Below, piece after piece: positions 9,516-43,219 of a stretch of 45,221 nucleotides of DNA; position 1 is the stretch's first letter; each line of letters begins with the position of its first letter. Below the pieces are notes generated by a model. The model searched no databases and was not told the origin of the DNA. It was given only the letters and a program-made list of their open reading frames with translations. Position numbers and translations under genes: made by a program. Source of the DNA: an uncultured Maribacter sp. (lineage in GTDB: Bacteria > Bacteroidota > Bacteroidia > Flavobacteriales > Flavobacteriaceae); NCBI GenBank assembly GCA_938038975.1, contig CALHVP010000073.1, forward strand, positions 1-45,221, given 5' to 3'.

Positions 9516-9537
9516 GAGTATAATTTTTAAAACGATG

Positions 9538-9545
9538 CAAATATA
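9538..9545 (-). promoter_or_regulatory. -7 box (TATATTTG) for ychF
   Basis: The complement of 9538-9545 reads TATATTTG, an exact TAnnTTTG match, 22 nt before the ychF start codon. At a 19-nt spacing the -33 position reads CTG instead of TTG, so the upstream element is weak. Confidence 0.55.
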
Positions 9546-9715
9546 GTTTTTACTTCATGATATGCAGCCTTAATAAACAGCAATAACCATCAAACTGACA
9601 AAATAAAATCCCACATTATTCATCCAAATAGAATAATCGCATCTACTATTTATAGGTATTTATACAATTTGTTGATAATAATTTAATATATTTCCGATTC
9701 TATTAAAAATAATGT

Positions 9716-10294: not shown

Positions 10295-10350
10295 AAAAAT
10301 AGGGTATAAAGTTTAAACGTAAGGCTCTTTAATATGGAAGACCTTATTGA

Positions 10351-11361
10351 ATGAAAACAGAACACTCTTTTTTACAACAATTATTAAACGACCCATCTTT
10401 TGTCAATTGGGCAAAGAACTCGAATAATAATGATATTGAATATTGGAATAATTGGATAGCTAATAATGCTTCCCGCATTGAAACAGTAGATACAGCCAAA
10501 GCAATTATTTTAGGTATTAAGTTTGAAAAAAACTTTCCAGCTAATTATAAAGTAGAAAAAGAATTATCTAAAATTTTACCACAATTACGTACTGATGATT
10601 TCCTTATACCACATAGTATAAAGAAAAATCCTTTTAAAAAGTATGTCTCGTTATCCGCTGCTGCCTTAATTCTTGTACTCATATCATGGTCTGGGAATCA
10701 GTTTTACACCAATTCTACTAGTACCGTACACAAAACAAATTATGGGGAAATTATAGATTTAAAGCTTCCTGATGGAACCTCGGTTGTGTTAAATGGTAAT
10801 TCGGAAATACAATATAAAAATAACAACCCTAGAAATATCTTTTTAAAAGGGGAGGCTTACTTTAAGGTAAAGTCCATACCATCTACAAAGGCAAAATTTT
10901 GGGTACATACTGAAGATCTTAAAGTTGAAGTTTTAGGCACGCAATTTCATGTAAACACCAGAAAGAAGAGAACAAATGTTGTATTAGATGAGGGATCAAT
11001 TCATTTGGAATTTGACAACGGAGATGTAAAAAAGATGATACCCGGAGAACTAGTTACTTTTTCTAAAGATTCTGAAAAACTGGTTCACACCAAAGTTACT
11101 GTGGCTACACCTTATGCCCTTTGGCGGGATGGAACGTACACTTTTAATGGAATTTCCTTAAAAGAAGTAATGACTAATATCGAATATACATACGGAGTTA
11201 AAGTGAAGTATCAGCATCCACAACTACAACAACTTTTAATAACAGGAGGTGTACCCAATCAAAACTTAAAAATATGTATCGCTGCAATTGAGCTGGCAAC
11301 CAATACTCGCATCATTCACAAAGACAATACTTTATTAATCCAAAACAATTTGAACAATTAA
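10351..11361 (+). CDS. FecR-family anti-sigma factor with DUF4974 domain
   Basis: This is a 336-residue single-pass inner-membrane regulator. The N-terminal ~90 residues are cytoplasmic and should hold the sigma factor. One transmembrane helix lies near residues 93-112 (VSLSAAALILVLISW). The periplasmic part has the FecR domain (GEIIDLKLPDGTSVVLNGNS to about residue 245) and a C-terminal DUF4974 region beginning GISLKEVMTNIEYTYGVKV. The known mechanism is that the STN domain of a ligand-loaded receptor contacts this periplasmic part and frees the sigma factor. The stop codon lies within a 12-bp tandem repeat that fills the gap to the receptor gene. Confidence 0.92.
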   Translation: MKTEHSFLQQLLNDPSFVNWAKNSNNNDIEYWNNWIANNASRIETVDTAKAIILGIKFEKNFPANYKVEKELSKILPQLRTDDFLIPHSIKKNPFKKYVSLSAAALILVLISWSGNQFYTNSTSTVHKTNYGEIIDLKLPDGTSVVLNGNSEIQYKNNNPRNIFLKGEAYFKVKSIPSTKAKFWVHTEDLKVEVLGTQFHVNTRKKRTNVVLDEGSIHLEFDNGDVKKMIPGELVTFSKDSEKLVHTKVTVATPYALWRDGTYTFNGISLKEVMTNIEYTYGVKVKYQHPQLQQLLITGGVPNQNLKICIAAIELATNTRIIHKDNTLLIQNNLNN

Positions 11362-11398
11362 CTTAACTATTAACTTAACTATTAACTTGAACAATTAA
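11350..11398 (+). repeat. 12-bp tandem repeat between fecR-type gene and TonB receptor gene
   Basis: Three consecutive 12-bp units lie at 11357-11392: ATTAACTTAACT, ATTAACTTAACT and ATTAACTTGAAC. The block is flanked by a direct repeat TTGAACAATTAA at 11350-11361 and 11387-11398, and the first copy contains the anti-sigma stop codon. Slippage here would change the leader length of the receptor message without altering either protein. Confidence 0.75.
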
Positions 11399-11413
11399 TT
11401 AAAACTATCTATT

Positions 11414-14400
11414 ATGAGAACCAAAAATCAAATTAAAACGCTGTTAGCGCTACTACTTTTTATAAGTAGTCTAGGCATAAACGCAGCAGAAACTGTAAAA
11501 AAAGAAGTCACTTTAAGTGAATTCTTAAAAGAGATTAGCTCTAAACATGAAGTATTTTTTACCTACAATCCAGAATTAGTAGGTACTACAAACTTAAATC
11601 CTAAGGATTATGAATTTCCACTATTAGACAAAATAATAAATAAGCTAGAACGCAAAACTAGCTTTGATTTTGAGTATTTAGGAAACAAATACTACGTAGT
11701 ATATCATAAAAAAGCAGCTAAAGCAGAGCTAAGTAAAGTAAATGCTATTACTAACGGTCTGTCAAACGTTTCTTTGATTTCAGATTTTCAAAGCAGTGTT
11801 TCTGGAAAAGTTACAGATGCTGATGGCGTAGCCTTAGCAGGAGTAAACATTGTTGAAAAAGGAACAACTAATGGAGCTTCTACTGATTTTGATGGAAATT
11901 ATAGCATCAACGCAGCAGAAGGAGCTACTTTGGTATTTAGCTATATAGGTTTTGCTACCCAAGAAATCAAAGTTGCTGGTAAATCTACCATTAATGTGAA
12001 GATGTCTGAAGGGATGCAATTAGAAGAGTTTATTGTAGTAGGGTCAAGAACAGCACCTAGAAGTAATGCTGATACCCCTTTACCCGTAGATGTTGTAGGA
12101 GCTAAAGATTTGACATCAACTGGTCAAATGACATTTGATAAAGCGTTACAATATAGAATACCATCTTTCAACACGGTTCAAACTCCTGTGAATGATGCGA
12201 CATCTTTATTAGATCCATACGAGATTCGTAATATGGGACCAAGTAGAACTTTGATTTTGATTAATGGAAAAAGAAAGAACTTAAGTGCACTTCTTTATAC
12301 TCAAACTTCTCCAGGTCGTGGTGAAACAGGAGCAGATATCTCAGCTATACCAACTGATGCAATTAAAAGAGTAGAGATACTTCGTGATGGTGCTTCTGCA
12401 CAATACGGTTCAGATGCTATCGCAGGTGTAATGAATATTATACTTAAAGATACGCCTAATGAAGGTTCTGCAACTATTAGAACTGGTATCACTTCTGAAG
12501 GTGATGGTGAGATGTTTGGTGTTGCAGTTAATAATGGTTCATCTATTGGTGATGATAAAGGTTTTGTAAACTATACGGTTGACTTATCTAAAGTTAATTT
12601 AGCCAATAGACCAGGTACCGTTAACGCAGCAGGTGAAGCCGGTGATTTTGGTGCAGACATAGCAGATGTTCAAGAATTTTTAGGGCGTAACCCAGATGCA
12701 AATAATATTAACGGTTCACCGGAAACTGCAGCAGCAAAATTTTCTGTAAATTTTGGTTATGATTTAAGTGAGAATACTTCATTGTATGCTAATGCAGCTT
12801 ACGTTTACAAATCTGTAAATAGTTTTGCAAATTACAGGACTCCATATTGGAGAACCGTAGACGATTTTCCATATTTAGCTGATTTCTTTCCTGGAGACAA
12901 TCCAACTACAGCTGGTGGTTACGACGGTTACGTACCAACCTTTGAAGGATTATTAAGTGATTATAATGCAACTGTTGGCTTTAAATCAACTATTAATGAT
13001 TGGAATATTGATGCAAGTTTCACTACAGGTGGAAACTCGCAAACTTATAAAGTGAACCAATCACATAACAGAAATGTTGTTTTCTCACCATCTACGTTTA
13101 TAGATGCAAACAATAACGGTAGTGTAGATGACGGTGAAATCACTGAAGGTTCTGAAATATACAGAGCAAACAGTCAGCAATCATTTGATCCAGGAGGAAC
13201 AAGCTTCTCTCATAACGTTGGTAACATTGATATCTCAAGAGTACTTTCTGATAAAATTAGTATTGGTGTAGGTGCAGAGTTTAGAACAGAAACTTTCGAA
13301 GTAATAGAAGGTGAATTAGCTTCTTACGATGGTGGTGGTGCAGATTCATTTGCAGGAAACGCACCTCAAAATTCAGGTAAATTTAATCGTTACAATATTG
13401 GTGGATACTTCAGTTTAGATTACGATGTATCGGATGCTTTCTTATTAAGTGGTACTATTAGAACAGAAAACTATTCTGATTTTGGTAATGCTTTCGTTTA
13501 TAAATTTAGTTCGCGTTACAAAGTTAGCGATGCTTTCACCTTAAGAGGATCTATTTCTTCTGGTTTTAGAGCACCTACTTTACATCAAATTTACACTCAA
13601 AAAGCACAGTATTCTTTTATTCCTGGTCAAGGAATACAAGTGGGTGGTTTAATTAATAATGTATCTACTTCAGCAAAATTATTAGGTATTGATCCGTTAG
13701 ATGCTGAAACATCTCAAAACTTTACAGTTGGTTTTGGTGGTAAAGCAAATAAGTTCTCCTATACTTTTGACTACTATAACATCGCTGTTAAAGATAGAAT
13801 TGTATTAGGAACAGAGATTGGTGCTAGTGGAGACGCTACTAACCCATTAGATGTTTTATTAGCAGCTAACAACTTAAGCGATATCAGTTTCTTCTCAAAT
13901 GCTATAGATACGAAGACATCAGGTATTGATGTGGTTCTTGGGTATAGAGGTATCGAACTTGGAAACGGTAGTTTGGATTTAAATTTATCTGGAAACTATA
14001 CGATTCAAAACGAACGTGACGGAGCAGTTAAGGATATTGATATCGTTGCAAATGCTGGACAATCTGTTTTCAACGACACACAAGATGCGCTTCTATTTAG
14101 TTCGCGTCCAATAACAAAATGGATTTTAGGTGGAAACTATGACATTAACAAATTTGGATTTTCTTTAAATAATACACTTTTCGGTAAAACTACGTTTCAA
14201 CAACAAGGTTTAGATTCGAATATATTTACAGAATTTACGCCGAAAGTTGTTACTGATTTAGGAATCAATTATAGCGCAACTGAAAAATTAACTATTGCTT
14301 TAAATCTTAATAACATATTAAATGTGTTACCAGAATGGAGCTTTAAATCTAAAAACGCTGCCGGTGATGCTTTATTAGCAGATCCAGCTCAGACTCAAAA

Positions 14401-14512
14401 TCAGTCTAATCTAATTACTTTTAACCAGAGATATTCTCAAATGACATATGATGGTTATCACTTTAGTCAATTAGGTGCTATGTTTAATCTATCATTGAAC
14501 TATAAGTTCTAA
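11414..14512 (+). CDS. TonB-dependent receptor with STN and CarboxypepD-like domains (FecA-type)
   Basis: This is a 1032-residue outer-membrane receptor. A signal peptide (residues 1-25) is followed by an STN signalling domain (about 30-98), a CarboxypepD-regulatory-like domain (about 128-200, VSGKVTDADG to VKMSEG), a plug (about 215-345, including RVEILRDGASAQYGSDAIAG) and the beta-barrel to the C-terminal NYKF. The STN domain and the sigma/FecR genes directly upstream make it a transducing receptor that imports and senses its ligand. No SusD partner follows, so a polysaccharide SusCD system is not supported. A predicted extracellular loop carries an EF-hand-like DANNNGSVDDGE. The ligand is unknown. 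A strong terminator follows the gene. Confidence 0.93.
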   Translation: MRTKNQIKTLLALLLFISSLGINAAETVKKEVTLSEFLKEISSKHEVFFTYNPELVGTTNLNPKDYEFPLLDKIINKLERKTSFDFEYLGNKYYVVYHKKAAKAELSKVNAITNGLSNVSLISDFQSSVSGKVTDADGVALAGVNIVEKGTTNGASTDFDGNYSINAAEGATLVFSYIGFATQEIKVAGKSTINVKMSEGMQLEEFIVVGSRTAPRSNADTPLPVDVVGAKDLTSTGQMTFDKALQYRIPSFNTVQTPVNDATSLLDPYEIRNMGPSRTLILINGKRKNLSALLYTQTSPGRGETGADISAIPTDAIKRVEILRDGASAQYGSDAIAGVMNIILKDTPNEGSATIRTGITSEGDGEMFGVAVNNGSSIGDDKGFVNYTVDLSKVNLANRPGTVNAAGEAGDFGADIADVQEFLGRNPDANNINGSPETAAAKFSVNFGYDLSENTSLYANAAYVYKSVNSFANYRTPYWRTVDDFPYLADFFPGDNPTTAGGYDGYVPTFEGLLSDYNATVGFKSTINDWNIDASFTTGGNSQTYKVNQSHNRNVVFSPSTFIDANNNGSVDDGEITEGSEIYRANSQQSFDPGGTSFSHNVGNIDISRVLSDKISIGVGAEFRTETFEVIEGELASYDGGGADSFAGNAPQNSGKFNRYNIGGYFSLDYDVSDAFLLSGTIRTENYSDFGNAFVYKFSSRYKVSDAFTLRGSISSGFRAPTLHQIYTQKAQYSFIPGQGIQVGGLINNVSTSAKLLGIDPLDAETSQNFTVGFGGKANKFSYTFDYYNIAVKDRIVLGTEIGASGDATNPLDVLLAANNLSDISFFSNAIDTKTSGIDVVLGYRGIELGNGSLDLNLSGNYTIQNERDGAVKDIDIVANAGQSVFNDTQDALLFSSRPITKWILGGNYDINKFGFSLNNTLFGKTTFQQQGLDSNIFTEFTPKVVTDLGINYSATEKLTIALNLNNILNVLPEWSFKSKNAAGDALLADPAQTQNQSNLITFNQRYSQMTYDGYHFSQLGAMFNLSLNYKF

Positions 14513-14536
14513 AAATTAAGTGTTTTGTTTTTAATT

Positions 14537-14569
14537 AAAAGCTGTCTATTATTAGACAGCTTTTTTTAT
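14537..14569 (+). terminator. Intrinsic terminator after the TonB receptor gene
   Basis: A perfect 12-bp stem pairs AAAAGCTGTCTA (14537-14548) with TAGACAGCTTTT around a 4-nt TTAT loop, followed by a T run. It ends about 10 nt before the next start codon, at 14578. Confidence 0.9.
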
Positions 14570-14577
14570 TTTTAAAT

Positions 14578-15321
14578 ATGACTGATCTATATAACAACAA
14601 ACTGTCTAGCACATATGATAATATGTACCAAGGGTTTATAGACTATACGCTGGAATACAACTTTTATGCAGGTATTTGTTCTAGATATAGAAGTAGCACT
14701 ATCCTTGAAATAGCATGTGGAACTGGAAATTTAGCTAAACCTTTCTCTCAAAATTTTAAATCCTACACAGGATTAGATGTTAGCGATTCTATGTTAGATA
14801 TTGCTAAAAAAAGATACCCTATGGGGACTTTCATAAAAGGAGATATGAGAAGTTTTAAAAGCACAACGCTATACGACAGTATATTAATCACAGGTAGGTC
14901 TACAAGTTATTTGATTTCTGACGCAGACCTGCTAAACACTTTTGGTGTGATTACCAATGCACTTGAAACAAGCGGTGTTTTCATTTTTGATTTTATAGAT
15001 GCAGATCGGTTTGCACCTTTTGTTGATAAAAATAAGTATGTAACCCATAAAAGCGAATACAATGAAAAGCAATACTTCAGAAAATCTGAATGGGTTAATA
15101 AAAAAGTAACGAATATAAATTTAATACACTGGAAGGCAGATTATTACCAAATAAAACAAGGGAAAAACGTATTTATTGGTAATGATACAAGTACTTTTAG
15201 GTGCTTTAGTAAAATTGAAATTGGACAACTATTATCAAAAAAAGGATTTAAGATATTAGAGCTTATAGATAGGAAAACCTATGCTTTTGACACATACGTT
15301 GCTGTCTGTAAAAAACTATAA
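14578..15321 (+). CDS. Class I SAM-dependent methyltransferase
   Basis: This is a 247-residue cytosolic methyltransferase. Motif I is ILEIACGTGNL (about residues 43-53). It is followed by the acidic ribose-binding strand YTGLDVSDSML, a later GDMRSF motif II region, and a strand FIFDFIDADR. The fold resembles the UbiE/Methyltransf_25 type, but the acceptor substrate cannot be inferred. The start codon is only about 10 nt beyond the receptor gene's terminator, with no promoter box between them. Expression must rely on read-through, or a shorter protein could start at Met17. It converges on the ferredoxin gene with a 64-bp gap that contains no clear hairpin. Confidence 0.8.
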   Translation: MTDLYNNKLSSTYDNMYQGFIDYTLEYNFYAGICSRYRSSTILEIACGTGNLAKPFSQNFKSYTGLDVSDSMLDIAKKRYPMGTFIKGDMRSFKSTTLYDSILITGRSTSYLISDADLLNTFGVITNALETSGVFIFDFIDADRFAPFVDKNKYVTHKSEYNEKQYFRKSEWVNKKVTNINLIHWKADYYQIKQGKNVFIGNDTSTFRCFSKIEIGQLLSKKGFKILELIDRKTYAFDTYVAVCKKL

Positions 15322-15385
15322 CTGTGATGAATATACCAATCTACACTATCTAGTTGTTACCTCAATATGTTTTTTTAAGACTACG

Positions 15386-15739
15386 CTACTCTTCAGGGTG
15401 CATAAATTTTTGTTTTCCAAGTAGCACTTCTTCAGTTTCTACATGATCATCATCTGGCACACAGCAATCTACAGGACAAACAGCAGCACATTGCGGCTCT
15501 TCATGGAATCCCATGCATTCCGTACACTTATCAGGAGAAATATAATAAACTTCATCACTTATAGGTTCTTGAACGCTATCTGCATTTACTGCTTTCCCAT
15601 CTGGTAATACGATATCGCCTTCTAAAGAAGTACCATCACTATACCTCCACTCATCTGCGCCCTCATAAATTGCAGTATTTGGGCATTCTGGTTCGCATGC
15701 CCCACAATTTATACACTCATCCGTAATTATAATAGCCAT
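15386..15739 (-). CDS. 4Fe-4S dicluster ferredoxin
   Basis: This is a 117-residue bacterial-type ferredoxin. The first cluster motif is C9-x2-C12-x2-C15-x3-C19-P. The second is Cys72, Cys75, Cys84 and Cys88-P, with extra Cys92 and Cys93. A ~45-residue insert rich in acidic residues separates the two motifs. This longer YfhL-like layout is common in flavobacteria. It transfers single electrons in the cytosol; the partner is unknown. It is divergent from the acyl-CoA reductase gene. Its promoter, with both -33 and -7 boxes, lies in the leader of that neighbour, so the two genes cannot be fired independently without interference. Confidence 0.93.
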
Positions 15740-15829
15740 AATTTTCTTTTTAGCATGTTTCGATTAAACCGAAACTATTTTTATGAATTCTAACACACTC
15801 TTTGAAATTCTAGTTAGAAAAGGTATCCG

Positions 15830-15837
15830 TATTTTTG
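15830..15837 (+). promoter_or_regulatory. -7 box (TATTTTTG) for the acyl-CoA reductase gene
   Basis: TATTTTTG is an exact TAnnTTTG match 38 nt before the ATG at 15876. The nearest TTTG upstream (15801-15804) is 25 nt away, longer than the usual 19-21, so the promoter is probably weak or activator-dependent. An inverted repeat TTCTAAC/GTTAGAA (15788-15794 and 15813-15819) overlaps the -33 region and could be an operator. Confidence 0.5.
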
Positions 15838-15839
15838 CA

Positions 15840-15871
15840 CAAAGATAATTCCTAACAATTCTTTGTACAAA
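15840..15871 (-). promoter_or_regulatory. Promoter of the ferredoxin gene
   Basis: On the minus strand TTTG (complement of 15868-15871), a 20-nt spacer and TATCTTTG (complement of 15840-15847) give a full Bacteroidota promoter. Transcription would start near 15834, leaving a leader of about 95 nt. Its -7 box is 2 bp from the oppositely facing -7 box at 15830-15837. Confidence 0.65.
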
Positions 15872-15875
15872 TATA

Positions 15876-16946
15876 ATGACCACTCAAAATACCAACATAA
15901 AAGCTTTTGTTAAACTTGGAGAATTTCTAAGTGAATACTGTAAATCAATAGCAAATGATACATTTACAGAGCTTGCTGATCAAAAATGGTTCGAAAAATT
16001 GAATCAAACAGTTGAAACTGCATTTCATCACAACGGATGGTTTACTAAGGAAAATTTAGTATTCGCATTAGAGGAATGGTCAAAAGGGTTGTCTGAGGAT
16101 AATTTAACTAAATGGCTGAAACCTTATGATATCTCAAAAAGTTCAACAAAAAATGTAGCACTCATATTAGCTGGAAATATACCTATGGTAGGGTTTCATG
16201 ACCTGTTAGCTGTGCTAATTACTGGTAATAATGCTGTTGTAAAATTATCTAGTAACGACAAATTATTATTACCACTTTTAGTAGATTATCTAATTGATGT
16301 AAACCCAGAATTTTCAGGTAGCGTATTGTTTACAGAAGAACGCCTTACAAATTTCGATGCGGTAATAGCTACTGGAAGTAATAATACTGCTCGCTATTTT
16401 GAGTACTATTTTGGGAAAAAACCTAATATCATTAGAAAAAACAGAAACTCCATAGCTATTCTAACGGGCAAGGAATCTAAATTGCAACTCGCAGCTCTTG
16501 GAGAAGATATTTTTAGATATTATGGTTTGGGTTGCCGCAGTGTTTCTAAATTATTTGTACCATTGGGTTATGACTTTGATAATTTTTACAAAGCTATGTA
16601 CCCCCACAACGAAATAATCAATCAACATAAATACGCTAATAATTACGATTACAACAAGGCAGTATACCTGATGAGTGAGTTTGATATTTTAGATAACGGA
16701 TTTCTAATGTTGAAAAAAGATACTAGCCACGCATCTCCCATAGCTACTTTGTTTTACGAAGAATACGAAAGTCAAGAACAGTTAAAATTAAAAATAGCAA
16801 ATGATTTAGATGCTATACAATGTATAGTTTCTAGTGGTCTATTTGATGATGAGGTTGCATTTGGAAATACACAAACTCCAAAACTATGGGACTATGCAGA
16901 TGGAGTGGATACTGTTGAATTCCTGTTAAAAACATCTAAGAAGTAA
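15876..16946 (+). CDS. LuxC-type acyl-CoA reductase
   Basis: This is a 356-residue protein of the LuxC/acyl-CoA reductase family within the aldehyde dehydrogenase superfamily. Such enzymes reduce fatty acyl thioesters to aldehydes with NADPH. The catalytic cysteine is Cys220 in YYGLGCRSVSK. The nucleotide-binding region shows LAGNIPMVGFHDLL (98-111) and VIATGSNNTARYFEYYF (163-179). No luxAB or luxDE genes are near, so bioluminescence is not implied; a role in lipid or aldehyde metabolism is more likely. It is divergent from a ferredoxin and is followed 63 bp downstream by serC. A small hairpin, ACAAAGA/TCTTTGT (15839-15866), lies at the expected 5' end of its message. Confidence 0.85.
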   Translation: MTTQNTNIKAFVKLGEFLSEYCKSIANDTFTELADQKWFEKLNQTVETAFHHNGWFTKENLVFALEEWSKGLSEDNLTKWLKPYDISKSSTKNVALILAGNIPMVGFHDLLAVLITGNNAVVKLSSNDKLLLPLLVDYLIDVNPEFSGSVLFTEERLTNFDAVIATGSNNTARYFEYYFGKKPNIIRKNRNSIAILTGKESKLQLAALGEDIFRYYGLGCRSVSKLFVPLGYDFDNFYKAMYPHNEIINQHKYANNYDYNKAVYLMSEFDILDNGFLMLKKDTSHASPIATLFYEEYESQEQLKLKIANDLDAIQCIVSSGLFDDEVAFGNTQTPKLWDYADGVDTVEFLLKTSKK

Positions 16947-24104: not shown

Positions 24105-24989
24105 TTAGATATCCTTCGGTTTGGGTTTACCTAGGCCGAAGGTTATTTGTTTCCAGAATCCTTTAGGTATTTCTTCATCACCTTTAAATCCTAAGACAAT
24201 TTGACCACCCTCCTCAGGAATATAATTGGTTTTGAAAATATAGTCCCACAAGCTTAGGCTTATTCCAAAATTGACACCAAACTTACCTTCTGGTAGTTTA
24301 AATGCATGATGATACAAGTGCATTACTGGATTGTTAAGCACATACTTTAGAGGTCCCCAAGAAATTTTGATATTCGCATGATTTAGGTGCCCAATAGTAA
24401 TTGCTATAAAATGAACAATAAATGCTTGCTCCGGTTCAAAACCTCCTAAAAGCATAACCGCAATAGTTTTCAATGGTTTATAGAAAATATTCTCCATCCA
24501 ATGGTAGCGTAAATGTGCGGCAAAACCCATTTCCTTTACACTGTGATGAATTTTATGAAATTGCCATAAAAACGGATATTTATGTAATAAAATATGAGTA
24601 AACCACTGAACGAAATCTAGTAAGACAAAAAACAATAGTAGTTGCGCCCAGTTAGGAAATTGTGAAATGGGTAATATTGAGATAGCGTTTAGTTGGATGC
24701 CTAAACTACTGAAACCTGCGCCTAAAACGCTGTAAAACCCACTTATAACTATACTAAAAAGGAAGAAATTAAAAAACATATAAAACCCGTCTAACCAAAA
24801 GTCGGTTCTAAAAATGGATTGTTGCTTACGCCAAGGAAAAACAATTTCTAATCCCCAAACAATTAGAGAAATCAAAATCAAACCCCAAAAATAATTAGTA
24901 TACCACGGGACTTCAAAAATAATTGACCTCCATGTCCAATTGATACTACCTTTTATAGCAGAGATAAAAATATCAAAAAGCATTTCCAT
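24105..24989 (-). CDS. Sterol desaturase / fatty acid hydroxylase family protein
   Basis: This is a 294-residue membrane di-iron oxygenase. The histidine boxes are HILLH (HxxxH), HKIHH (HxxHH), a lone-His stretch HLNHAN and HLYHH (HxxHH). The hydrophobic N-terminal half holds about four membrane segments. It is only distantly similar to the enzyme at 1912-2871. The substrate is unknown; lipid or carotenoid hydroxylation is possible. It is on the minus strand downstream of folE and a small membrane protein. It converges on the lipoprotein gene with only 5 bp between stop codons. A hairpin inside its last codons (24113-24142) may serve as a transcript end for the opposing operon. Confidence 0.83.
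   Translation of the reverse strand: MEMLFDIFISAIKGSINWTWRSIIFEVPWYTNYFWGLILISLIVWGLEIVFPWRKQQSIFRTDFWLDGFYMFFNFFLFSIVISGFYSVLGAGFSSLGIQLNAISILPISQFPNWAQLLLFFVLLDFVQWFTHILLHKYPFLWQFHKIHHSVKEMGFAAHLRYHWMENIFYKPLKTIAVMLLGGFEPEQAFIVHFIAITIGHLNHANIKISWGPLKYVLNNPVMHLYHHAFKLPEGKFGVNFGISLSLWDYIFKTNYIPEEGGQIVLGFKGDEEIPKGFWKQITFGLGKPKPKDI
24113..24142 (+). terminator. Possible terminator of the receptor-lipoprotein operon inside the convergent gene
   Basis: CCTTCGG (24113-24119) and CCGAAGG (24136-24142) form a 7-bp GC-rich stem with a 16-nt loop, followed on the plus strand by TTATTTGTTT. It lies 13 bp past the lipoprotein stop codon, within the 3' coding end of the desaturase gene. Confidence 0.45.
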
Positions 24990-33942: not shown

Positions 33943-33964
33943 ATAAATTTTGATGACTAATAAA

Positions 33965-35518
33965 ATGAAAAAAACAGTACTTATTCTTACAGGTTTAGTA
34001 ATGGCTTGTAATTCTTCTCAAAAAACGGTGAACGCAGACGCTAAGGAAAACATCGTAAAAATGGTAGACCCTTCGGTGTATGCAGAAAGCATTACAGAAG
34101 CAGAACTTAAAGATCATCTTTATATTTATGCATCTGACGAATTTGAAGGTAGAGAAACGGGTGAGCCAGGACAGAAAAAAGCAATTGCCTACTTAAAGGC
34201 AGCATATGAAAAATTAAATATACCTGCGGCACAGGAGAATGGTGAGTATTTTCAAAAAGTAGGATTAGAAGTGGCTAAAATGCCAACAGGCACATTAACA
34301 GTTAACGGTTCTTCGTATACCTTAGGTGAAGATTTTGCCAGCTTTAATGATTCTGGAATAAGTACTGAAAAAATAGTCTATGCTGGCTATGGTATAGAAG
34401 ATGGGGAATATTCAGATTACACGAATATAGATGTAACCGGAAAACTTGTTTTAGTTAAAGATGGAGAGCCTAAAAATGAAGACGGCACCTATGTACTTAC
34501 AGGGACCACCGAGGCTTCTAAATGGAGTGCAGATTCTATGAATAGAATCCAGTTTGTAATGGATAAAGGCGCTAAAGGAGTTTTATTATACGCTCCAACA
34601 TTGTACCCTAGGATTCTAGCTTATTATAATAGATCCAAGAATAGTTCTTCTGGAAGAATGAGTGTAAAAGGACTTAAAAAGAGCACCTTTAATGCGGTAA
34701 TAAGTGAAAAACTAGCTGAAGCAATACTTCCTAATATCGAGAAAGACAATACTCCAAAGGAGTTAAGTATTAAAGCAACTACAGATATAATTGGCAACGC
34801 AGATGCTGTGGATTCTGAAAACGTAGTAGCTTTTATAAAAGGTAGTGAAAAACCAGATGAGTATTTGGTTATTTCTTCACACCTAGACCACATTGGGGTA
34901 AGTGACGATGGTCAAATAAATAATGGTGCAGATGATGATGGATCTGGTTCTGTAGCACTATTAGAAATTGCAGAAGCTTTTAAAAAAGCAGCTGACGCAG
35001 GTAATGACCCTAAACGTTCTGTTGTATTTCTACATGTTACAGGTGAAGAAAAAGGATTATTAGGTTCCTTATATTATACAGATGTAGATCCTATTTTTCC
35101 ACTTTCCAAAACAGTTGCAAATTTAAATATTGATATGATTGGTAGAATTGACCCAAACAGAGAGGGCGAAAGAAACTATATCTATCTAATTGGTTCAGAT
35201 AAGTTAAGTACCGAGTTACATGAGCTATCGGAGGCTGTAAATACAAAATATGCAAATATTGAGCTAGACTATACCTATAATGATGAAAACGACCCAAATC
35301 GTTTTTATTACAGAAGTGACCACTACAATTTTGCAAAAAATAACATTCCAATTATATTTTATTTTAACGGAACTCATGCAGATTATCATAAACCTGGAGA
35401 CACCCCTGATAAAATAAATTATGATTTATTAGAGAATAGAACTAGACTTGTTTTTCATACCGCTTGGGAAGTAGCTAATAGAGACAAACGAATTACTGTA
35501 GATAAAGCTACAGAATAA
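33965..35518 (+). CDS. M28-family metallopeptidase lipoprotein
   Basis: This is a 517-residue lipoprotein; the signal is MKKTVLILTGLVMACNSS with the lipidated Cys at 15. A protease-associated (PA) domain covers roughly residues 115-270. The M28 catalytic domain carries the usual zinc ligands: SSHLDHIG, GADDDGSG, TGEEKGLLGS, NIDMIGR and THADYHKPGDT. The likely activity is aminopeptidase cleavage in the periplasm or at the cell surface. Two earlier in-frame starts exist (ATG 33953, TTG 33950). I prefer 33965 because the signal peptide begins there and the -7 box leaves almost no leader for the others. A strong terminator follows. Confidence 0.9.
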   Translation: MKKTVLILTGLVMACNSSQKTVNADAKENIVKMVDPSVYAESITEAELKDHLYIYASDEFEGRETGEPGQKKAIAYLKAAYEKLNIPAAQENGEYFQKVGLEVAKMPTGTLTVNGSSYTLGEDFASFNDSGISTEKIVYAGYGIEDGEYSDYTNIDVTGKLVLVKDGEPKNEDGTYVLTGTTEASKWSADSMNRIQFVMDKGAKGVLLYAPTLYPRILAYYNRSKNSSSGRMSVKGLKKSTFNAVISEKLAEAILPNIEKDNTPKELSIKATTDIIGNADAVDSENVVAFIKGSEKPDEYLVISSHLDHIGVSDDGQINNGADDDGSGSVALLEIAEAFKKAADAGNDPKRSVVFLHVTGEEKGLLGSLYYTDVDPIFPLSKTVANLNIDMIGRIDPNREGERNYIYLIGSDKLSTELHELSEAVNTKYANIELDYTYNDENDPNRFYYRSDHYNFAKNNIPIIFYFNGTHADYHKPGDTPDKINYDLLENRTRLVFHTAWEVANRDKRITVDKATE

Positions 35519-35615: not shown

Positions 35616-35629
35616 TTTAGGCTCTCTAG

Positions 35630-35703
35630 GGTGGAAGACCGGGTTCGAACCGGCGACCCTCGGTACCACAAACCGATGCTCTAACCAGCTGAGCTACAAC
35701 CAC
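35630..35703 (-). tRNA. tRNA-His (anticodon GTG)
   Basis: The minus strand folds as a full cloverleaf: D stem GCTC/GAGC, anticodon stem TCGGT/ACCGA with loop TTGTGGT (anticodon GTG), T stem GCCGG/CCGGT with loop TTCGAAC. The discriminator is C73 and the preceding genomic base provides G-1 (35704), the His identity pair. CCA is not encoded. The acceptor stem pairs GTGGTTG with CTTCCAC, leaving two adjacent T-T mismatches (5-68 and 6-67). It has its own promoter and terminator. Confidence 0.96.
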
Positions 35704-36056: not shown

Positions 36057-38093
36057 ATGATTAGAAAAGAAGTTCTATTTCTTTTATTTTTTATATTCTG
36101 TTATTTAAGCCTTAACTCCCAAACGGATAGTATTGCTTATTATAAGGAACAAGTGACTCATATTAGAAACTCACCTAATTTCACTCCTAGGGACACTACG
36201 TATATTCAACTGTTAAATATATTAAGTTCAAAGATAAAATATCGTAATACTGATTCGCTATCCATTCTCTCTATCGAGGCATTAAGTTTAAGTGAGGATA
36301 TCAACTATACCAAAGGAAAAAACGATGCACTGTCCTATTTAGCGATTTATGAACTTGTCAATGGGAATTATGAAAAATCCCTTAATTATAACCTAGAAAT
36401 ATTAAAAAATATAGACAAATCCAAAAGGCCAGAGCTTGCGGCAGGCATATACAATATTATGGGGCAAACGTATTCTTCTCTGAGTAATTATCCAGAAGCT
36501 TACAAACACTTGTATGAATCGTTATTATTGGCTCAATTGGCAGGTAATAATGATTTAATAATAAAAATAAACTCTAATCTAGGTACCTTATTTTCCTTAT
36601 TAGAGGATTATAACGAAGCCACAAAGTATTACCAGGTTGCCTTGGAAAAAATAAACAAAGACGACAATACAATCCTTAAGGCAGGTATTCAGTGTAATCT
36701 TGGATATCTCTTTATGAAAAAAAGAGATTCCACTAAAGCACTTGACTTTCTTAGGAAAAGCCTTCCTACTTTAGAGAAACAAAATGCAACCTTAATATTG
36801 GGAATCACATATACTACCTTCGGTGATGTCTATTATACCTTTGGAGATTTCAAAAAGTCCTTACGGTATTTTAAAAAAGCATTACCATACTATGAGTTCC
36901 TGAACGATGCAAGAAATAAGGCTGCAGTACTATATGGAGTTGGAACATCTTATCTGGCATTAAATAATTTTGAAAAAGCTGAAGAGTTTTTAAAAGAAAG
37001 CGTTTTCCTTTATAAGAAAGTACAGTATAAAATTGGATTGGAGCAATCTTACAGAGCGCTTTATAAGTTAAATAATAGTAAGGCTAAGGCAGCAAAAGCA
37101 CTTTATTTTTTAGAATTATCACAAAGCTATTCTGATTCAATTTTCAAGGAAAAAAGCGTTCGGGATATTGCAATGTTAAAAGCAAAAATGGCATTCGAAG
37201 AAGATAAAGCCGATATAATTCTTAAAAACAATATTGAAGTTGCGGAACAAAAGAAATATGTACGAAGCGCCATTTTTGGCTTTATATGTGCCTTAATTAT
37301 CGCATTACTAGTATTTCAAGCAAATAGGACAGAAAGGAAGTTAAATAATGAACTGGCAATTCAGACTCATAGCTTAACACAAAAACAAGAAGAACTTAAT
37401 GAAATTAATAAGAATCAGGATAAGCTTTTCTCTATTGTTGGACATGATCTAAGAGGGCCCATTGTATCCTTAAAACAACTTCTAACACTAGCTTTGGAAA
37501 ATGAAACCGGAGTGCAACATTTTTATCGGTTTGGACCAAAGCTTAAAAAAGACGTAGATCACATTCACTTTACCTTAGATAATTTATTGAACTGGGGATT
37601 AACTCAAATGCAAGGCGAACCATTAAATCCAATTGCAGTAAACATTCAGAAGGAATTATCAGAAATTATAGTTCTATTCAGAGAAGTTTTAGATAAAAAA
37701 TCTATTACAATTCATAAGGACTTTTTGACAAGTAAAAGTATTTTTGTTGACGCAAACCACTTTAAAATCATTTTTAGGAACCTGATTAGTAATGCCATAA
37801 AATTTACGCCTGAACATGGTGATATTTGGTTAAAATCTCGAATAGAAGAAAACAATTTAATTATTAGTATCCAAGACAATGGTATTGGAATGACTAAGGA
37901 TGTCCTTCGTAGAATTTTTAATCAATCTGAATATTATACAACTTTCGGAACTGATAATGAACGTGGCACTGGCTTAGGTTTAGCACTATGTAAAGAGATG
38001 GTTGTTAAAAATAATGGAACTATTTCAGTAACCAGTATTCCAGATGAAGGAAGTACTTTTTATGTTAAATTTCCGAGGCTAAATCATGTTTAA
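36057..38093 (+). CDS. TPR-containing sensor histidine kinase (array copy 1)
   Basis: This is a 678-residue membrane kinase. A signal peptide (1-21) leads to a periplasmic TPR superhelix (about 50-350) for ligand or protein binding. A short coiled coil, a transmembrane helix (about 403-421), a second coiled coil (425-455) and the DHp helix with phospho-acceptor His463 in GHDLRGPI follow. The ATPase domain has the N-box NLISNAIKF, DNGIGM and GTGLGLALCKEM. There is no receiver domain and no response-regulator gene nearby, so it must signal to a distant partner. It aligns almost without gaps with copy 2 up to the phospho-acceptor His. Confidence 0.93.
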   Translation: MIRKEVLFLLFFIFCYLSLNSQTDSIAYYKEQVTHIRNSPNFTPRDTTYIQLLNILSSKIKYRNTDSLSILSIEALSLSEDINYTKGKNDALSYLAIYELVNGNYEKSLNYNLEILKNIDKSKRPELAAGIYNIMGQTYSSLSNYPEAYKHLYESLLLAQLAGNNDLIIKINSNLGTLFSLLEDYNEATKYYQVALEKINKDDNTILKAGIQCNLGYLFMKKRDSTKALDFLRKSLPTLEKQNATLILGITYTTFGDVYYTFGDFKKSLRYFKKALPYYEFLNDARNKAAVLYGVGTSYLALNNFEKAEEFLKESVFLYKKVQYKIGLEQSYRALYKLNNSKAKAAKALYFLELSQSYSDSIFKEKSVRDIAMLKAKMAFEEDKADIILKNNIEVAEQKKYVRSAIFGFICALIIALLVFQANRTERKLNNELAIQTHSLTQKQEELNEINKNQDKLFSIVGHDLRGPIVSLKQLLTLALENETGVQHFYRFGPKLKKDVDHIHFTLDNLLNWGLTQMQGEPLNPIAVNIQKELSEIIVLFREVLDKKSITIHKDFLTSKSIFVDANHFKIIFRNLISNAIKFTPEHGDIWLKSRIEENNLIISIQDNGIGMTKDVLRRIFNQSEYYTTFGTDNERGTGLGLALCKEMVVKNNGTISVTSIPDEGSTFYVKFPRLNHV

Positions 38094-38187
38094 AATTTAT
38101 CTGTCATTTGACTAATTAACAATATTAGAATGCGCAAGTTTAATAATTTCATGTATTACAAACACAGTTAATTTAGGGAATAAGTTT

Positions 38188-40218
38188 ATGATGAATAAAA
38201 AAATACTTCTTTTATTTTTATTTATAAGCAACACACTGTTTGTTCTTTCTCAAACCAAAAAGCCTTCTAATTTATTACAAGAAATAGAAGAGTTAAAATC
38301 ATCAAGCAGTTTTGATGAGAAAAGTGTAACCTACATTGATTTATTAATAGAACTTGGTCATAGTTTAAAGTATTCAAAAACCGATACTATTAAAATAATT
38401 GCTGTACAAACATTAGAGCTAAGTGAAAAACTAAATTACGAAAAAGGAAGAATAGAGTCTTTAATCAATTTTGGTTTTTATGAGCTGTTTACAGGGAACC
38501 CAAACCAAGCTATTTTTTATTATGAAAAGGCGCTAGATGGGGCTTTCTCCTCTAACTTCCAGGATATAACCATTAAATGTTATAATGGTATTGCTCAAGC
38601 ACAGTTTATCAAAGCAGAATTTCCAGATTGCTATAAGAGCTTTCTGAAAGCATTAGAAGTGGCGGAAGAGATCAATGATTTTGAAATGATCATTTTGATG
38701 AATACCAATCTAGGAACACTGTTCTCCCTATTACAGAACTATGAAGAAGCATTAACGTATTATGAAGTTGCTCAAACCAAATTTAATGAAGACACTTCAA
38801 TAATAGCAAAAGTAACCGTTTTAGTTAATCTAGGTTTTCTGAATAATAAAACCAAAGAACCTAAAAAAGCTTTAGAATATTTAAATGAGTCTATTGATTT
38901 AGTGCAAACTATCGAGGCTACCAAAATACTCGCATTTGCATATTTAACTAAAGGAGAAGTATATAGTCAAATGCAAGAATATGAGAAAGCTATATCCTAT
39001 TTTAATCAAGCAAAAAAAATATACGATGAGGGTAATGATAACAAAGGAGAAGCAGATTTTTATTATTATGCAGGTCTTGCAAATTATGAGCTAAACAACC
39101 TAGAAGTAGCGGAGAAATTTATAAGCAAAAGCCTTGAACAATATACCGCCTTTACCCTGAAATCTGGTATGCAAAAATGTTATAGAGCATTATATCTCAT
39201 TAATAAAAGAAAAGGATTAACCGCTAAAGCACTTTCTAATTTGGAAAAGTCTCAGCTGTTTGCGGACTCTACATCCAGAGACAAACAAACAAGAGATATC
39301 TCAATGCTTAAAGCGAGGTCCGCTTTTAAGAAAAGTAAATTACTAATTGAGGAGGAAAATAGTCTTAAAATAGCTAAACAGAAAAGGTACATCCAATGGA
39401 CAACTACAGGTTTAATATGCCTATTACTTATATCTATTTTAATTTTTAAATCCAGTAGCACAAAAAAAAGACTAAATAAAGAATTAGCAATTAAGGCAGA
39501 CATCCTTTCTAATAAAAAGGAGGAATTGGATAAAATAAATAGTAATCAGGATAAGCTCTTTTCTATAGTTGGTCATGATTTAAGAGGCCCTATACTATCT
39601 TTAAAACAACTTCTTGGATTGGCACTAAAAAATGATACTGATATTAAGCACTTTTATAAGTTTGGCCCAAATCTTAAAAAAGGAGTAAATCATATTCATT
39701 TTACATTGGATAACCTTCTAAACTGGGGGCTATTGCAAATGAAAGGTAACACCTATGATCCAGTACAGATTAATATTAATGAAAGTATAAGCGAAATATT
39801 AGAATTTTCGCGCGAGTCTTATGAAAACAAAAAATTAAGCGTAACTAAAGAAATAGATGAAAATCTTAGTATTACTGCGGATGCAAATCACTTCAACATA
39901 ATTTTTAGAAATTTAATTAGCAACGCTATTAAGTTTACTCCTGACAATGGTGCTATATCCGTTACCGTATATTCAAATGAGAGAGTAACAACTATAAGCA
40001 TTGAAGACACAGGTATTGGTATGACTCAAGATATAGCGTATAAAATTTTAAATAATAAAGAGCACTACAGCACTTTTGGTACTAATAATGAACAAGGAAC
40101 AGGTTTAGGACTTGTACTTTGTAAAGAACTAATTAAGAAGAATAGTGGGGAAATCAATGTTACTAGTGAATTGGGACATGGAAGTACATTTATTGTGAAT
40201 TTTATAAACGGTACATAG
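38188..40218 (+). CDS. TPR-containing sensor histidine kinase (array copy 2)
   Basis: This is a 676-residue paralogue of the preceding kinase with the same order of parts: signal peptide (1-21), periplasmic TPRs (about 50-350), transmembrane helix (about 402-420), coiled coil, DHp with His463 in GHDLRGPI, and ATPase domain (NLISNAIKF, DTGIGM, GTGLGLVLCKEL). The identical His position and shared segments such as NLGTLFSLL at 174-182 in both point to direct duplication. Divergence is higher in the TPR region than around the His, which would suit different inputs feeding similar output. It lies 94 bp after copy 1. Two ATG codons in a row start the gene; I take the first. Confidence 0.93.
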   Translation: MMNKKILLLFLFISNTLFVLSQTKKPSNLLQEIEELKSSSSFDEKSVTYIDLLIELGHSLKYSKTDTIKIIAVQTLELSEKLNYEKGRIESLINFGFYELFTGNPNQAIFYYEKALDGAFSSNFQDITIKCYNGIAQAQFIKAEFPDCYKSFLKALEVAEEINDFEMIILMNTNLGTLFSLLQNYEEALTYYEVAQTKFNEDTSIIAKVTVLVNLGFLNNKTKEPKKALEYLNESIDLVQTIEATKILAFAYLTKGEVYSQMQEYEKAISYFNQAKKIYDEGNDNKGEADFYYYAGLANYELNNLEVAEKFISKSLEQYTAFTLKSGMQKCYRALYLINKRKGLTAKALSNLEKSQLFADSTSRDKQTRDISMLKARSAFKKSKLLIEEENSLKIAKQKRYIQWTTTGLICLLLISILIFKSSSTKKRLNKELAIKADILSNKKEELDKINSNQDKLFSIVGHDLRGPILSLKQLLGLALKNDTDIKHFYKFGPNLKKGVNHIHFTLDNLLNWGLLQMKGNTYDPVQININESISEILEFSRESYENKKLSVTKEIDENLSITADANHFNIIFRNLISNAIKFTPDNGAISVTVYSNERVTTISIEDTGIGMTQDIAYKILNNKEHYSTFGTNNEQGTGLGLVLCKELIKKNSGEINVTSELGHGSTFIVNFINGT

Positions 40219-40349
40219 GTAATAAAATCGCTATCATTTTAACCCTTTTATCATATAAGTGATTTAGCTTATCTTACAATGAGATAATATTAAAATATCG
40301 ACGTAATACACTCTATTTCAGTTAAAACACACATAAAAACGTGTTTCAC

Positions 40350-40417
40350 AACATTATTTAGTTAACAGCTAGAACATATATTAGTTTTAGACCTAGTTAA
40401 CTAAGTAAAATAATGTT
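40350..40417 (+). promoter_or_regulatory. Start-codon-sequestering hairpin of kinase copy 3
   Basis: The left arm 40350-40366 (AACATTAT then TTAGTTAAC) pairs with GTTAACTAA (40396-40404) and, across a 5-nt bulge, with ATAATGTT (40410-40417). That is 17 bp in total, with a 29-nt loop. The ATG at 40413-40415 lies inside the second paired block, so the folded leader would hide the start codon. Confidence 0.55.
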
Positions 40418-42503
40418 TTTTAATACTAAGTATTTTTTTCACAGCCAAGGACGTGCTATAATTACGGCATTTTCTATTCTAATATTTGTCCTGCAAGTAG
40501 AAGAACTATTTAGTCAATCTAAAACTGCAAATCATCTTTTGGAGAAAATTGATAAGCTTCAAGCAAAGGATAATTTTCAAAAAACAGATACGCTTTACAT
40601 TAATACCATATTGGAAATAGCTGGTAATCAACGTTATTATAACGTAGACAGTTTGTATTTGCTAGCCTCTCAAGGATTATCTCTAAGTAAAAAATCAAAT
40701 TATATAAAAGGGCAATCAAAATCATTTTCGCTTTTGGGTAATTTTTATTCTGATAACGGGAAACATGATGAAGCGATAGCAAAGTTTAGTAATGCATTAG
40801 AATTAGCTCGAGAATTAGAACTTCCAAACCTTACTCTTTCTGCTATCAGTGACTTAGGTGGTGAATATGCTTATAAAGGTAATTACGCCATGGCGTTAAA
40901 AAAATACCTTTTAGGAATTGAAATTGCGGAGGAACATCAGAATAAACTTAGACTATCCATATTAAATGAAAATATAGCAAATCTATATGTTTCACAAAGA
41001 GATTTTGAACAAGGAATGCTATTCTACAATAAAGTAAAAAAAATTAACGAAGAAATTGGTAATCCTATATATATGGCTGAAACCATGAGCAACATGGCAT
41101 CTGCATATGCAGACATGGAAGAGCTAGATTTAGCAATGTATAATGTAAATAGTAGTATCCGTGTTTTTGAGAAAGAAAAAATAATGGATTGGTTAGCTTA
41201 TGCCTATGAAATTAAAGGTAAAGTATATTTAAAGCAAAAAAAGTACGATTGGGCTATGTACTGGTACAAACAAAGTGAACTTATACATACAGAACTTGAA
41301 GATGAAAGGGCAGAAATCTCTTTGTTGAACGGTATGGCAGAAGCTAATCTTGGTGCAACAAATGATAGTATTTCAGAAGTATACGCATTAAAGGCTATGA
41401 ACCTTTCAATGAAACTAGAATCTATGACCACTACAAAGGATGGTGCGAAAATTCTATATTCATTATATAAAAAGAAAGGTGAACATGAAAATGCATTGCG
41501 TTATCATGAACTTTATCAAAGGTTATCCGATACATTATCCAGAAAAGAAAATCAAAAAAGTTTAACCCTGTTCAAAACCAAGTCTGAGTACGATCAACAG
41601 AAAGAGCAACTAGTTCTTGAAAATGAAAAAGCACTAGCAAAGCAGAAAACCTATGTTTACGCAGCACTATTTTTTCTAATCATATTTCTTTGCATTACCT
41701 TCTTAGTTCGAAGAAATGAAAGAGTTCAGAAAAAATTAAATAAAGAATTACTTTCGAAACAATCAGATTTAGAAAATAGTGAAGTCCATTTAAAAGAAGT
41801 AAACCAAACAAAAGATAAATTATTTTCTATAATTGGGCACGATTTAAGAGGACCTATAGGTGCTTTTCAAGGGTTAATAAAACTTTTTCAAGATGGCGAA
41901 GTTACAAAAGAAGAATTTCTTGATTTTGTACCAAAATTAAAAACTGATATTGATAATATAGCGTTTACATTAAATAACTTACTTTCTTGGGGACAGACTC
42001 AAATGAATGGATCTGTTACTTCTCCTAGTGTTACTTCATTAGAACATATAGTTCAGGAAAATATTGATTTGCTTTCTGAAATAGCAGCAAATAAATCTAT
42101 AAAATTATTGAATAGAATAGAGACAAACACTTTTACCTATTCAGATAGTAATCAAATAGATATAGTCGTAAGAAATTTATTAAGTAATGCATTGAAATTT
42201 ACACCGGAAAAAGGAACAGTAACCATTGGTGCCGTTGAAAAAACAAAGTATTGGGAAGTTTTCGTAAGAGATACTGGAATAGGAATGAATGAAGAGACAC
42301 TTGGGAAAATTTTCAATAAAGATTCTACCCATACCACCTATGGGACGAATGACGAAAAAGGTACTGGCTTAGGACTATCTCTTTGTAAAGAAATGGTTGA
42401 GAAAAATGAAGGAATTATTTGGGTAGACAGCTCAGTGAATAGCGGTTCTAGCTTTTATTTTACTATTCCTAAAGGAAAAAAATTACTTCAAAAAAGTGCT
42501 TAG
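40413..42503 (+). CDS. TPR-containing sensor histidine kinase (array copy 3)
   Basis: This is a 696-residue, more diverged member of the kinase array. The N-terminal hydrophobic segment is preceded by a longer basic stretch (residues 1-35). Periplasmic TPRs span about 60-375. A transmembrane helix (about 414-432), a coiled coil, DHp with His476 in GHDLRGPI and the ATPase motifs NLLSNALKF, DTGIGM and GTGLGLSLCKEM follow. It is separated from copy 2 by 194 bp, and a strong interrupted hairpin encloses its start codon. Separate translational control is therefore likely. Its TAG stop overlaps the TAA stop of the convergent bshB1 gene. Confidence 0.93.
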   Translation: MFFNTKYFFHSQGRAIITAFSILIFVLQVEELFSQSKTANHLLEKIDKLQAKDNFQKTDTLYINTILEIAGNQRYYNVDSLYLLASQGLSLSKKSNYIKGQSKSFSLLGNFYSDNGKHDEAIAKFSNALELARELELPNLTLSAISDLGGEYAYKGNYAMALKKYLLGIEIAEEHQNKLRLSILNENIANLYVSQRDFEQGMLFYNKVKKINEEIGNPIYMAETMSNMASAYADMEELDLAMYNVNSSIRVFEKEKIMDWLAYAYEIKGKVYLKQKKYDWAMYWYKQSELIHTELEDERAEISLLNGMAEANLGATNDSISEVYALKAMNLSMKLESMTTTKDGAKILYSLYKKKGEHENALRYHELYQRLSDTLSRKENQKSLTLFKTKSEYDQQKEQLVLENEKALAKQKTYVYAALFFLIIFLCITFLVRRNERVQKKLNKELLSKQSDLENSEVHLKEVNQTKDKLFSIIGHDLRGPIGAFQGLIKLFQDGEVTKEEFLDFVPKLKTDIDNIAFTLNNLLSWGQTQMNGSVTSPSVTSLEHIVQENIDLLSEIAANKSIKLLNRIETNTFTYSDSNQIDIVVRNLLSNALKFTPEKGTVTIGAVEKTKYWEVFVRDTGIGMNEETLGKIFNKDSTHTTYGTNDEKGTGLGLSLCKEMVEKNEGIIWVDSSVNSGSSFYFTIPKGKKLLQKSA

Positions 42504-43219
42504 ATTAAATTATCTAAAGATTCTACAGCAATTAGTCTTTCTACATTAAAGCCTTCGGCATAATCAGTACCCACTAATCTTCCTAAATCTTGAGCTCTGT
42601 ATTTAACGCTTTCTATAAAGGTTTTACTGCTTATAGGGGTTTCTGGCTCTTTACTATTAGCATCATGAAACTGAGAACCATATGCTAAAATGGACTTCAC
42701 TTTTACATCCATAAACCCACTAATATCTATAACAAAATCTGGAACAAGGTTCTTCCATTGTATATAGTGATAAACAAATTTAGGTCTCCAAGGAGCTTGA
42801 GTATTATTTTCAATAGTAGTACTTATCTTAATTAAACCACTAAGAAAACAAGCGTCACTAACCAACTTACTACCTTTACCATGATCTATATGCCGGTCAT
42901 CTATAGCATTACATAAGACTATCTCTGGTTGATATTTACGAACCATCTTAATAATAGCTAGTTGGTGCGCTTCATCATTTATAAAAAATCCATCTCTGAA
43001 TTTTAAATTCTCTCTTACTGCCACTTGAAGTATACCAGCTGCTGCTTGCGCCTCTGAATCTCTTATTTCGGCTGTTCCACGTGTTCCTAATTCTCCTCTC
43101 GTTAAATCTACAATACCCACTTTTTTACCGTTGGCTATCTCCTTTGCAATAGTTCCGCCTGCCCCTAGTTCTGCATCATCAGGATGTGCGCCAAAAACCA
43201 ATATATCTAATTTCATCAT
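42500..43219 (-). CDS. bshB1: Bacillithiol biosynthesis deacetylase BshB1
   Basis: This is a 239-residue zinc-dependent N-acetylglucosaminyl-malate deacetylase of the LmbE/PIG-L family. It makes GlcN-malate, the intermediate to which cysteine is added to form bacillithiol. The metal-binding motif is AHPDDAELG (11-19), with a second site at DDRHIDHGKG. The downstream QFHDANSKEPET and the YAEGF stretch near the C-terminus are typical of the BshB1 subgroup. It lies downstream of a trans-sulfuration PLP enzyme gene on the same strand, a link with cysteine supply. bshA and bshC are not in the window. It ends within the last codon of kinase copy 3. Confidence 0.93.
   Translation of the reverse strand: MMKLDILVFGAHPDDAELGAGGTIAKEIANGKKVGIVDLTRGELGTRGTAEIRDSEAQAAAGILQVAVRENLKFRDGFFINDEAHQLAIIKMVRKYQPEIVLCNAIDDRHIDHGKGSKLVSDACFLSGLIKISTTIENNTQAPWRPKFVYHYIQWKNLVPDFVIDISGFMDVKVKSILAYGSQFHDANSKEPETPISSKTFIESVKYRAQDLGRLVGTDYAEGFNVERLIAVESLDNLI

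Follow-up and report, generated by a model that had tools for sequence, protein, structure and literature searches.

A tandem array of three sensor histidine kinase genes was analyzed in a 45,221-nucleotide stretch of DNA (the window) from an uncultured Maribacter sp. (contig CALHVP010000073.1 of assembly GCA_938038975.1). The three genes, K1, K2 and K3, are co-oriented and encode kinases with tetratricopeptide repeats (TPR). The locus is a real and conserved TPR kinase locus without a response regulator, of a known general kind, and it carries a younger duplicate. Taken together, the data probably describe an inherited orphan kinase locus in which K1 and K2 differ in their ligand and share a partner, K3 has its own or an overlapping partner, and all three proteins act as kinases only.

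The divergence between K1 and K2 was found to be concentrated in the sensor. The two proteins are 36% identical in the TPR region, 74% in the dimerization and histidine phosphotransfer (DHp) domain and 52% in the catalytic and ATP-binding (CA) domain, and the corresponding values for K1 and K3 are 22-23%, 50% and 41%. Compared with the orthologues, the DHp identity was 83% (K1) and 76% (K2) versus 74% between K1 and K2, whereas the TPR identity was 50% and 54% versus 36%. In the quartet of K1 and K2, the branch that leads from duplication to speciation has a length of 0.61 for the TPR region and 0.15 for the kinase core. The ratio of internal to tip branches was 1.63 (5-95% range 1.27-1.93) for the TPR region and 0.58 (0.38-0.80) for the core in 40 resamples. 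A second run with 60 resamples gave ranges of 1.19-1.99 and 0.39-0.96, respectively, and the 5-95% ranges are separate in both runs. The resulting TPR/core ratio of K1/K2 is 2.81, compared to 0.54 to 1.68 in eight speciation quartets and 0.83 for the split between the two kinase clades A (K1 and K2) and B (K3). These values point to a sensor that changed and an output half that was kept after the duplication.

An earlier interpretation made from the letters alone (the sequence-only reading) had described three adjacent same-strand kinases of 678, 676 and 696 amino acids with a shared architecture, which was confirmed by open reading frames (ORFs), Pfam and hydropathy. Each protein has a hydrophobic N-terminus (judged from hydropathy, without a signal-peptide predictor), a TPR region, one strong transmembrane (TM) stretch and a kinase half. 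The hydrophobic stretch spans about residues 400-425 in K1 and about 410-436 in K3. Pfam matched TPR and HATPase_c families in all three proteins, the latter (PF02518) with E-values of 6e-25 (K1), 9.5e-20 (K2) and 6.9e-23 (K3). The histidine of the HDLRGP motif is located at position 463 in K1 and K2 and at position 476 in K3, and the H, N, G1 and G2 boxes are intact in all three. The Pfam HisKA model matched K3 alone (23.8 bits, cut-off 26.9) and neither K1 nor K2 at E 0.001. Residues 459-689 of K3 match solved structures, which together with the motif likens the kinases to the HisKA type; the term therefore denotes a likeness and not a passed Pfam model. In an alignment of 112 related kinases, the phospho-accepting histidine is kept in 111 and an Asp at His+1 in all 112 sequences.

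The similarity of the copies is well above chance (E=1.2e-178 for K1 and K2, 4.9e-101 for K1 and K3). The near gap-free alignment of the first two copies up to a phospho-acceptor at residue 463 in both, and the larger divergence of the third, were likewise borne out. Over residues 1-462, K1 and K2 align with 0 gaps and 38% identity, compared to 15 gap columns and 26% identity for K1 and K3. An AlphaFold2 model of K1, built from the three window proteins, has a mean pLDDT of 72 and a pTM of 0.50. The model has helical hairpins as far as approximately residue 366, one long helix that spans the membrane region, and a fold of the ATPase type; residues 439-520, which comprise most of the DHp domain, have a pLDDT below 50 and are not interpretable. 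The best Foldseek matches of the model were TPR domains of the LGN type and histidine kinase cores.

Next, the ancestry of the copies was inferred from a FastTree tree of the 112 kinases and two quick IQ-TREE trees of subsets, all of which agree. K1 pairs with one kinase of genome G006 and K2 with the other, and both pairs are sisters, so that the duplication is common to this one other species. K3 was assigned to the B clade, together with the relatives that share its synteny. An origin of K1/K2 by duplication of K3 within the genus was rejected. Forcing the A clade together with the B sequences of the genus costs 95 log units (p=2.9e-7 in the approximately unbiased (AU) test; a previous tree was already known when the constrained group was defined, and long branches are involved). 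In these trees, an old A/B split predates the genus and was followed by the younger duplication of K1/K2. The three kinases are thus not of one age, and the single triplication proposed in the sequence-only reading has to be corrected. A placement in distant clades, given there as evidence against it, was found for K3 versus K1/K2, not for K1 versus K2. Gene conversion was rejected as the cause of the high DHp identity of K1 and K2, since the identities within genomes (74 and 73%) resemble those between genomes (76 and 73%).

Elsewhere in the tree, the extra upstream copies of G209 and G143 grouped with the A clade in the best tree with a support of 73, and for a group of the A clade and only the G209 copy the AU test yielded p=0.095. 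The three copies of G192 group together as sister to the B clade rather than within it, and an independent expansion was counted for this genome only.

For the analysis of partner specificity, the positions His+7, His+11 and His+12 were compared, with offsets set from His243 of EnvZ, which we take to be its phospho-acceptor. The equivalent residues T250, L254 and A255 dominate the specificity of EnvZ (PMC2991266). At these positions K1 has V, Q and L, K2 has L, Q and L, and K3 has G, G and L. Since K1 and K2 agree at two of the three main sites and diverge at one (V/L), they likely share a partner and output; K3 differs at two, and from these residues its sharing of that partner is doubtful. 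The difference extends to the clades. The B clade (52 sequences) has A at His+8 throughout, G (50 sequences) or A (2) at His+7 and, in 45 sequences, G at His+11. The A clade (34 sequences) has S at His+8 in 33 cases; at His+7 it carries I in 18, N in 6, V in 5, T in 3 and another residue in 2 (L among them).

The phosphatase activity of HisKA kinases needs a Thr or Asn in the motif H-E/D-x-x-T/N, and the kinase activity needs the acidic residue next to the histidine (PMC3510030). Among the 112 aligned kinases, position His+4 is G in 90, S in 16, D in 3, A in 2 and V in 1, and in no case Thr or Asn. A motif scan of 57 fetched kinase or regulator loci of the same genome identified 15 other HisKA-like motifs, one of which (L004) is the same gene as L111 and already among the 112 kinases. 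T or N was present at His+4 in 13 of the other 14 and S in one. Because of the inherited lack of Thr and Asn at this position, K1-K3 and their relatives are predicted to be kinase-only, one-way phosphate donors, which add phosphate and do not remove it by the usual HisKA mechanism.

No receiver domain or response regulator was found in the window, in agreement with the sequence-only reading. A receiver hidden Markov model (HMM) trained on the receivers of this genome gave no match among the window ORFs of at least 60 amino acids; of 30 receiver loci, it retrieved all 30, including the 16 used for training. Pfam searches at E 1e-8 of 20 other window ORFs also revealed no receiver. Furthermore, no receiver was detected in the flanking DNA fetched for 54 loci in which a kinase lies at most 1.5 kb from bshB1 (34 loci in the genus and 20 in other genera); these flanks were mostly 5-8 kb long per side, a few being shorter, with a minimum of 0.6 kb. 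As a positive control, two other TPR kinases of the same genome, L112 and L113 (the latter classed by similarity only), adjoin a receiver at distances of 13 and 4 bases. Since none was detected at the syntenic loci either, the orphan state of the kinase locus looks inherited.

The conservation of the locus was examined in 60 genomes including the own one, using K2 as query (E 1e-60). Matches were found in 37 genomes, comprising all 36 of the genus and one from another genus of the family, and in 0 of 23 elsewhere in the order. The conserved gene order in the fetched loci of the genus is peptidase, A kinase(s), K3, bshB1 and a pyridoxal phosphate (PLP) enzyme. Two A copies together with K3 occur in 3 of the 36 genomes (the own genome G000, G006 and G032), no A copy was seen in G001 and G011, and a single A copy was counted in the other 31 (possibly an undercount in G020, G024 and G031, which are at contig ends; G009 is frame-shifted). 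K3 was matched at E 1e-70 in at least 28 of 159 family genomes, the own genome and one congener included; this is a lower bound, as few candidates were scored per genome. A K3-type kinase, or in one genus a member of a close sister group, adjoins the peptidase or bshB1 in 21 other genera, in 20 of them bshB1, and 51 of the 54 bshB1-adjacent kinase loci also adjoin the peptidase. The same 21 genera have the marker protein L072 at 80% identity or more. The K3-type gene therefore marks one sub-clade, defined here by marker identity and not by a species tree.

A functional link between kinase and peptidase was rejected. In 10 of 20 genomes hand-chosen among those without K3 at E 1e-70, the peptidase is kept near bshB1 with no kinase between, so that this adjacency is independent of K3. 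One of the other genomes (G150) has a 684-amino-acid hybrid kinase with HisKA, HATPase and receiver domains and no TPR match in the slot (L206, positions 4473-6524), and in the remaining 9 the fetched stretch contains no peptidase.

Tandem copies at the same locus were also found outside the genus, three each in G192, G143 and G207 and two in G209; at other loci there are two in G210 and five in G108. The five full-length TPR kinases of G108 (L173, positions 4446-16638) lie in tandem apart from bshB1, with a 190-amino-acid kinase-like fragment between the second and third, and no receiver was detected across the fetched stretch. The middle kinase of the G207 array (L195, positions 5303-7300) is a pseudokinase with an intact ORF of 666 amino acids, in which Gln replaces the phospho-accepting histidine and the G1 box is degenerate; HATPase_c still matches at 3.5e-8.

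Several points weigh against a shared output of K1 and K2, a separate K3 and kinase-only chemistry. The sensor-biased divergence was measured for a single duplication event, one B-clade control quartet reaches a TPR/core ratio of 1.68, and the interval of the branch ratio for the DHp domain alone is wide (0.24-1.44). The A clade evolves faster than the B clade (mean identity 66% versus 88% in the DHp domain and 44% versus 61% in the TPR region), and relaxed constraint could therefore be the cause instead of new ligands. The A/B difference at the specificity sites does not exceed the general DHp divergence of the clades (46% identity), and the A clade itself varies at His+7 and His+11. The rules derived from EnvZ and RstB may not transfer to HDLRGP kinases. 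Even with T/N lost, another phosphatase mechanism may operate. Finally, the assembly comprises 279 contigs at a completeness of 85%, and a regulator may be missing from it.

That all three kinases feed one distant regulator, as the sequence-only reading had suggested, is possible but somewhat unlikely. It is consistent with the finding that no receiver was detected near any of the 54 syntenic loci and with an unlinked orphan regulator of the NtrC type (L061, G000:C110), whose acceptor Asp was identified by eye and which occurs in 20 of 20 family genomes tested. L061 is a possible regulator of K1-K3. However, it was found in 10 of 10 K3-less genomes as well as in 10 of 10 genomes carrying a kinase at this locus, and is thus uninformative on partnership and not tied to these kinases. 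The His+7/+8 split between the clades also argues against a single regulator. The suggestion of several extracytoplasmic inputs is supported, as is a shared output for K1 and K2 (DHp 74% versus TPR 36% identity, one differing site, sensor-biased divergence); a common regulator for all three is not supported, as K3 and 51 B-clade relatives differ at His+7/+8.

No partner of K1-K3 was found among the orphan regulators compared. L086 (G000:C224; 1240-1857), an orphan of the NarL type that is mostly restricted to the clade, matches 18 of 20 kinase-bearing genomes (in G163 partially) and 1 of 20 K3-less ones. It is present in 20 of 159 genomes of the family sample and absent in the kinase-bearing G114 and G192. 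Its acceptor Asp is replaced by Glu in 18 of 20 distinct sequences (L086 and L220-L239, where L220 repeats L086). L072, also an orphan of the NarL type, is 80-91% conserved in the clade and has Glu at the acceptor site in this genome. Both were rejected as ordinary phospho-partners because of the Glu and because their pattern follows clade membership. The kinase is present in every sampled genome with L072 at 80% or more, and the co-occurrence of L086 thus reflects membership in the clade and not linkage.

In a wider sense, the region might be a sensor-swapping locus. Regulator-less, kinase-only TPR receptors would then have been expanded in tandem next to bshB1 in several genera of the clade, with a constant output and a TPR region freed for new ligands, and some copies, such as the pseudokinase of one genus, would serve as tuning dimer partners. 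This extension is considered unlikely.

Three separate pathways, each with its own distant regulator, are quite unlikely. The strong divergence of the three sensors and the deviating specificity residues of K3 would fit, but K1 and K2 differ at one dominant site of three (V/L) with 74% DHp identity, and the duplicate came without a linked regulator. Improbable as well are mixed dimers in which the array members tune each other: the tandem co-orientation, the high DHp identity of K1 and K2 and, as the sole hint of such a function, the G207 pseudokinase would agree with them, but K1-K3 retain every catalytic motif, and the phospho-accepting histidine is missing in just 1 of 112 aligned kinases.

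For the favored orphan locus with a shared K1/K2 partner, the following course is proposed. K3 is the conserved gene, and K1 and K2 would derive from an older duplicate, which was then duplicated again. The periplasmic TPR sensor probably binds a peptide or protein ligand, as judged from the TPR fold and the work on FimS, and the signal would pass through one TM helix and the linker. The kinase would autophosphorylate on the HDLRGP histidine, in line with the motifs present, and presumably pass the phosphate on to an unlinked regulator. Different ligands with the same dimer and partner chemistry are most likely for K1 and K2, and K3 most likely has its own, or merely an overlapping, partner. 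Different extracellular signals would thus probably be conveyed by K1 and K2 to one shared intracellular partner. If the phosphatase activity is truly lacking, the shut-off step must lie elsewhere. Fresh kinase duplicates with a constant output and an altered sensor represent a natural test of how inputs are added without crosstalk, and this question becomes testable with the pair K1/K2, the older K3 and the dozens of species in which the copy number ranges from one to three.

LGN/Pins is an animal protein, and its solved, peptide-binding TPR domain was the top Foldseek match of the K1 model (TM-score by target of about 0.6-0.75). With an identity of 15-17% this is a likeness of fold alone and uninformative on the ligand. 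KinA-E and Spo0F form a funnel of multiple kinases. The locus resembles it in having several sensor kinases without a linked regulator and a likely shared output for K1 and K2, but no common phospho-acceptor protein was identified for K1-K3 and the signature of K3 differs. The best NCBIfam match of K1-K3 was FimS of P. gingivalis (NF053520), with the best stretch in the linker and kinase. FimS likewise carries a kinase at its C-terminus and, flanked by two TM helices, a periplasmic part with eight predicted TPRs (PMC11053733). The scores of 152.5, 191.2 and 199.4 bits are below the cut-off of 600, and K1-K3 are not FimS orthologues. In addition, FimS is encoded with its regulator FimR (PMC5706477), whereas none was detected for K1-K3 in the window or at the 54 loci. 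Within a limited paper collection, no publication was found that deals with the locus or with orphan TPR kinases in tandem.

The features of the locus are listed in Table 1. The gaps inside the array are 94 and 194 bases long. The Bacteroidota promoter consensus, which we take to be TANNTTTG, was absent from all three gaps upstream of K1-K3. The putative peptidase is presumably to be labeled M28.

Table 1. Coordinates of the kinase array and its neighbors in the window.
Feature	Position	Strand	Remarks
K1, TPR sensor histidine kinase, A clade	36057..38093	+	ORF, 678 aa
K1, TPR region	about 36132-37223
K1, TM helix	about 37254-37331
K1, DHp domain	37413-37646
K1, CA domain	37647-38081
K1, phospho-acceptor His463 codon	37443-37445	+
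K2, TPR sensor histidine kinase, A clade	38188..40218	+	ORF, 676 aa; sister of K1
K2, phospho-acceptor His463 codon	39574-39576	+
K3, TPR sensor histidine kinase, B clade	40413..42503	+	ORF, 696 aa; conserved copy adjoining bshB1
K3, phospho-acceptor His476 codon	41838-41840	+
bshB1, bacillithiol biosynthesis deacetylase	42500..43219	-	conserved neighbor; convergent with K3, 4-base overlap
Putative peptidase 5' of K1	33950..35518	+	conserved neighbor; NCBIfam LapA aminopeptidase match below cut-off
tRNA-His (gtg)	35629..35703	-	between peptidase gene and K1

Further observations were made in the same genome and window. A TPR-like protein on contig C19 (L114, positions 3336-5330) has a C-terminal half that could not be aligned as a kinase and, by the impression of the alignment, resembles a nucleotide cyclase. 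On contig C1, a receiver domain is fused to a family 2 glycosyltransferase (L069, positions 275-1414). The window contains two genes of the fatty acid hydroxylase family, at positions 1915-2871 and 24108-24989, both on the minus strand.

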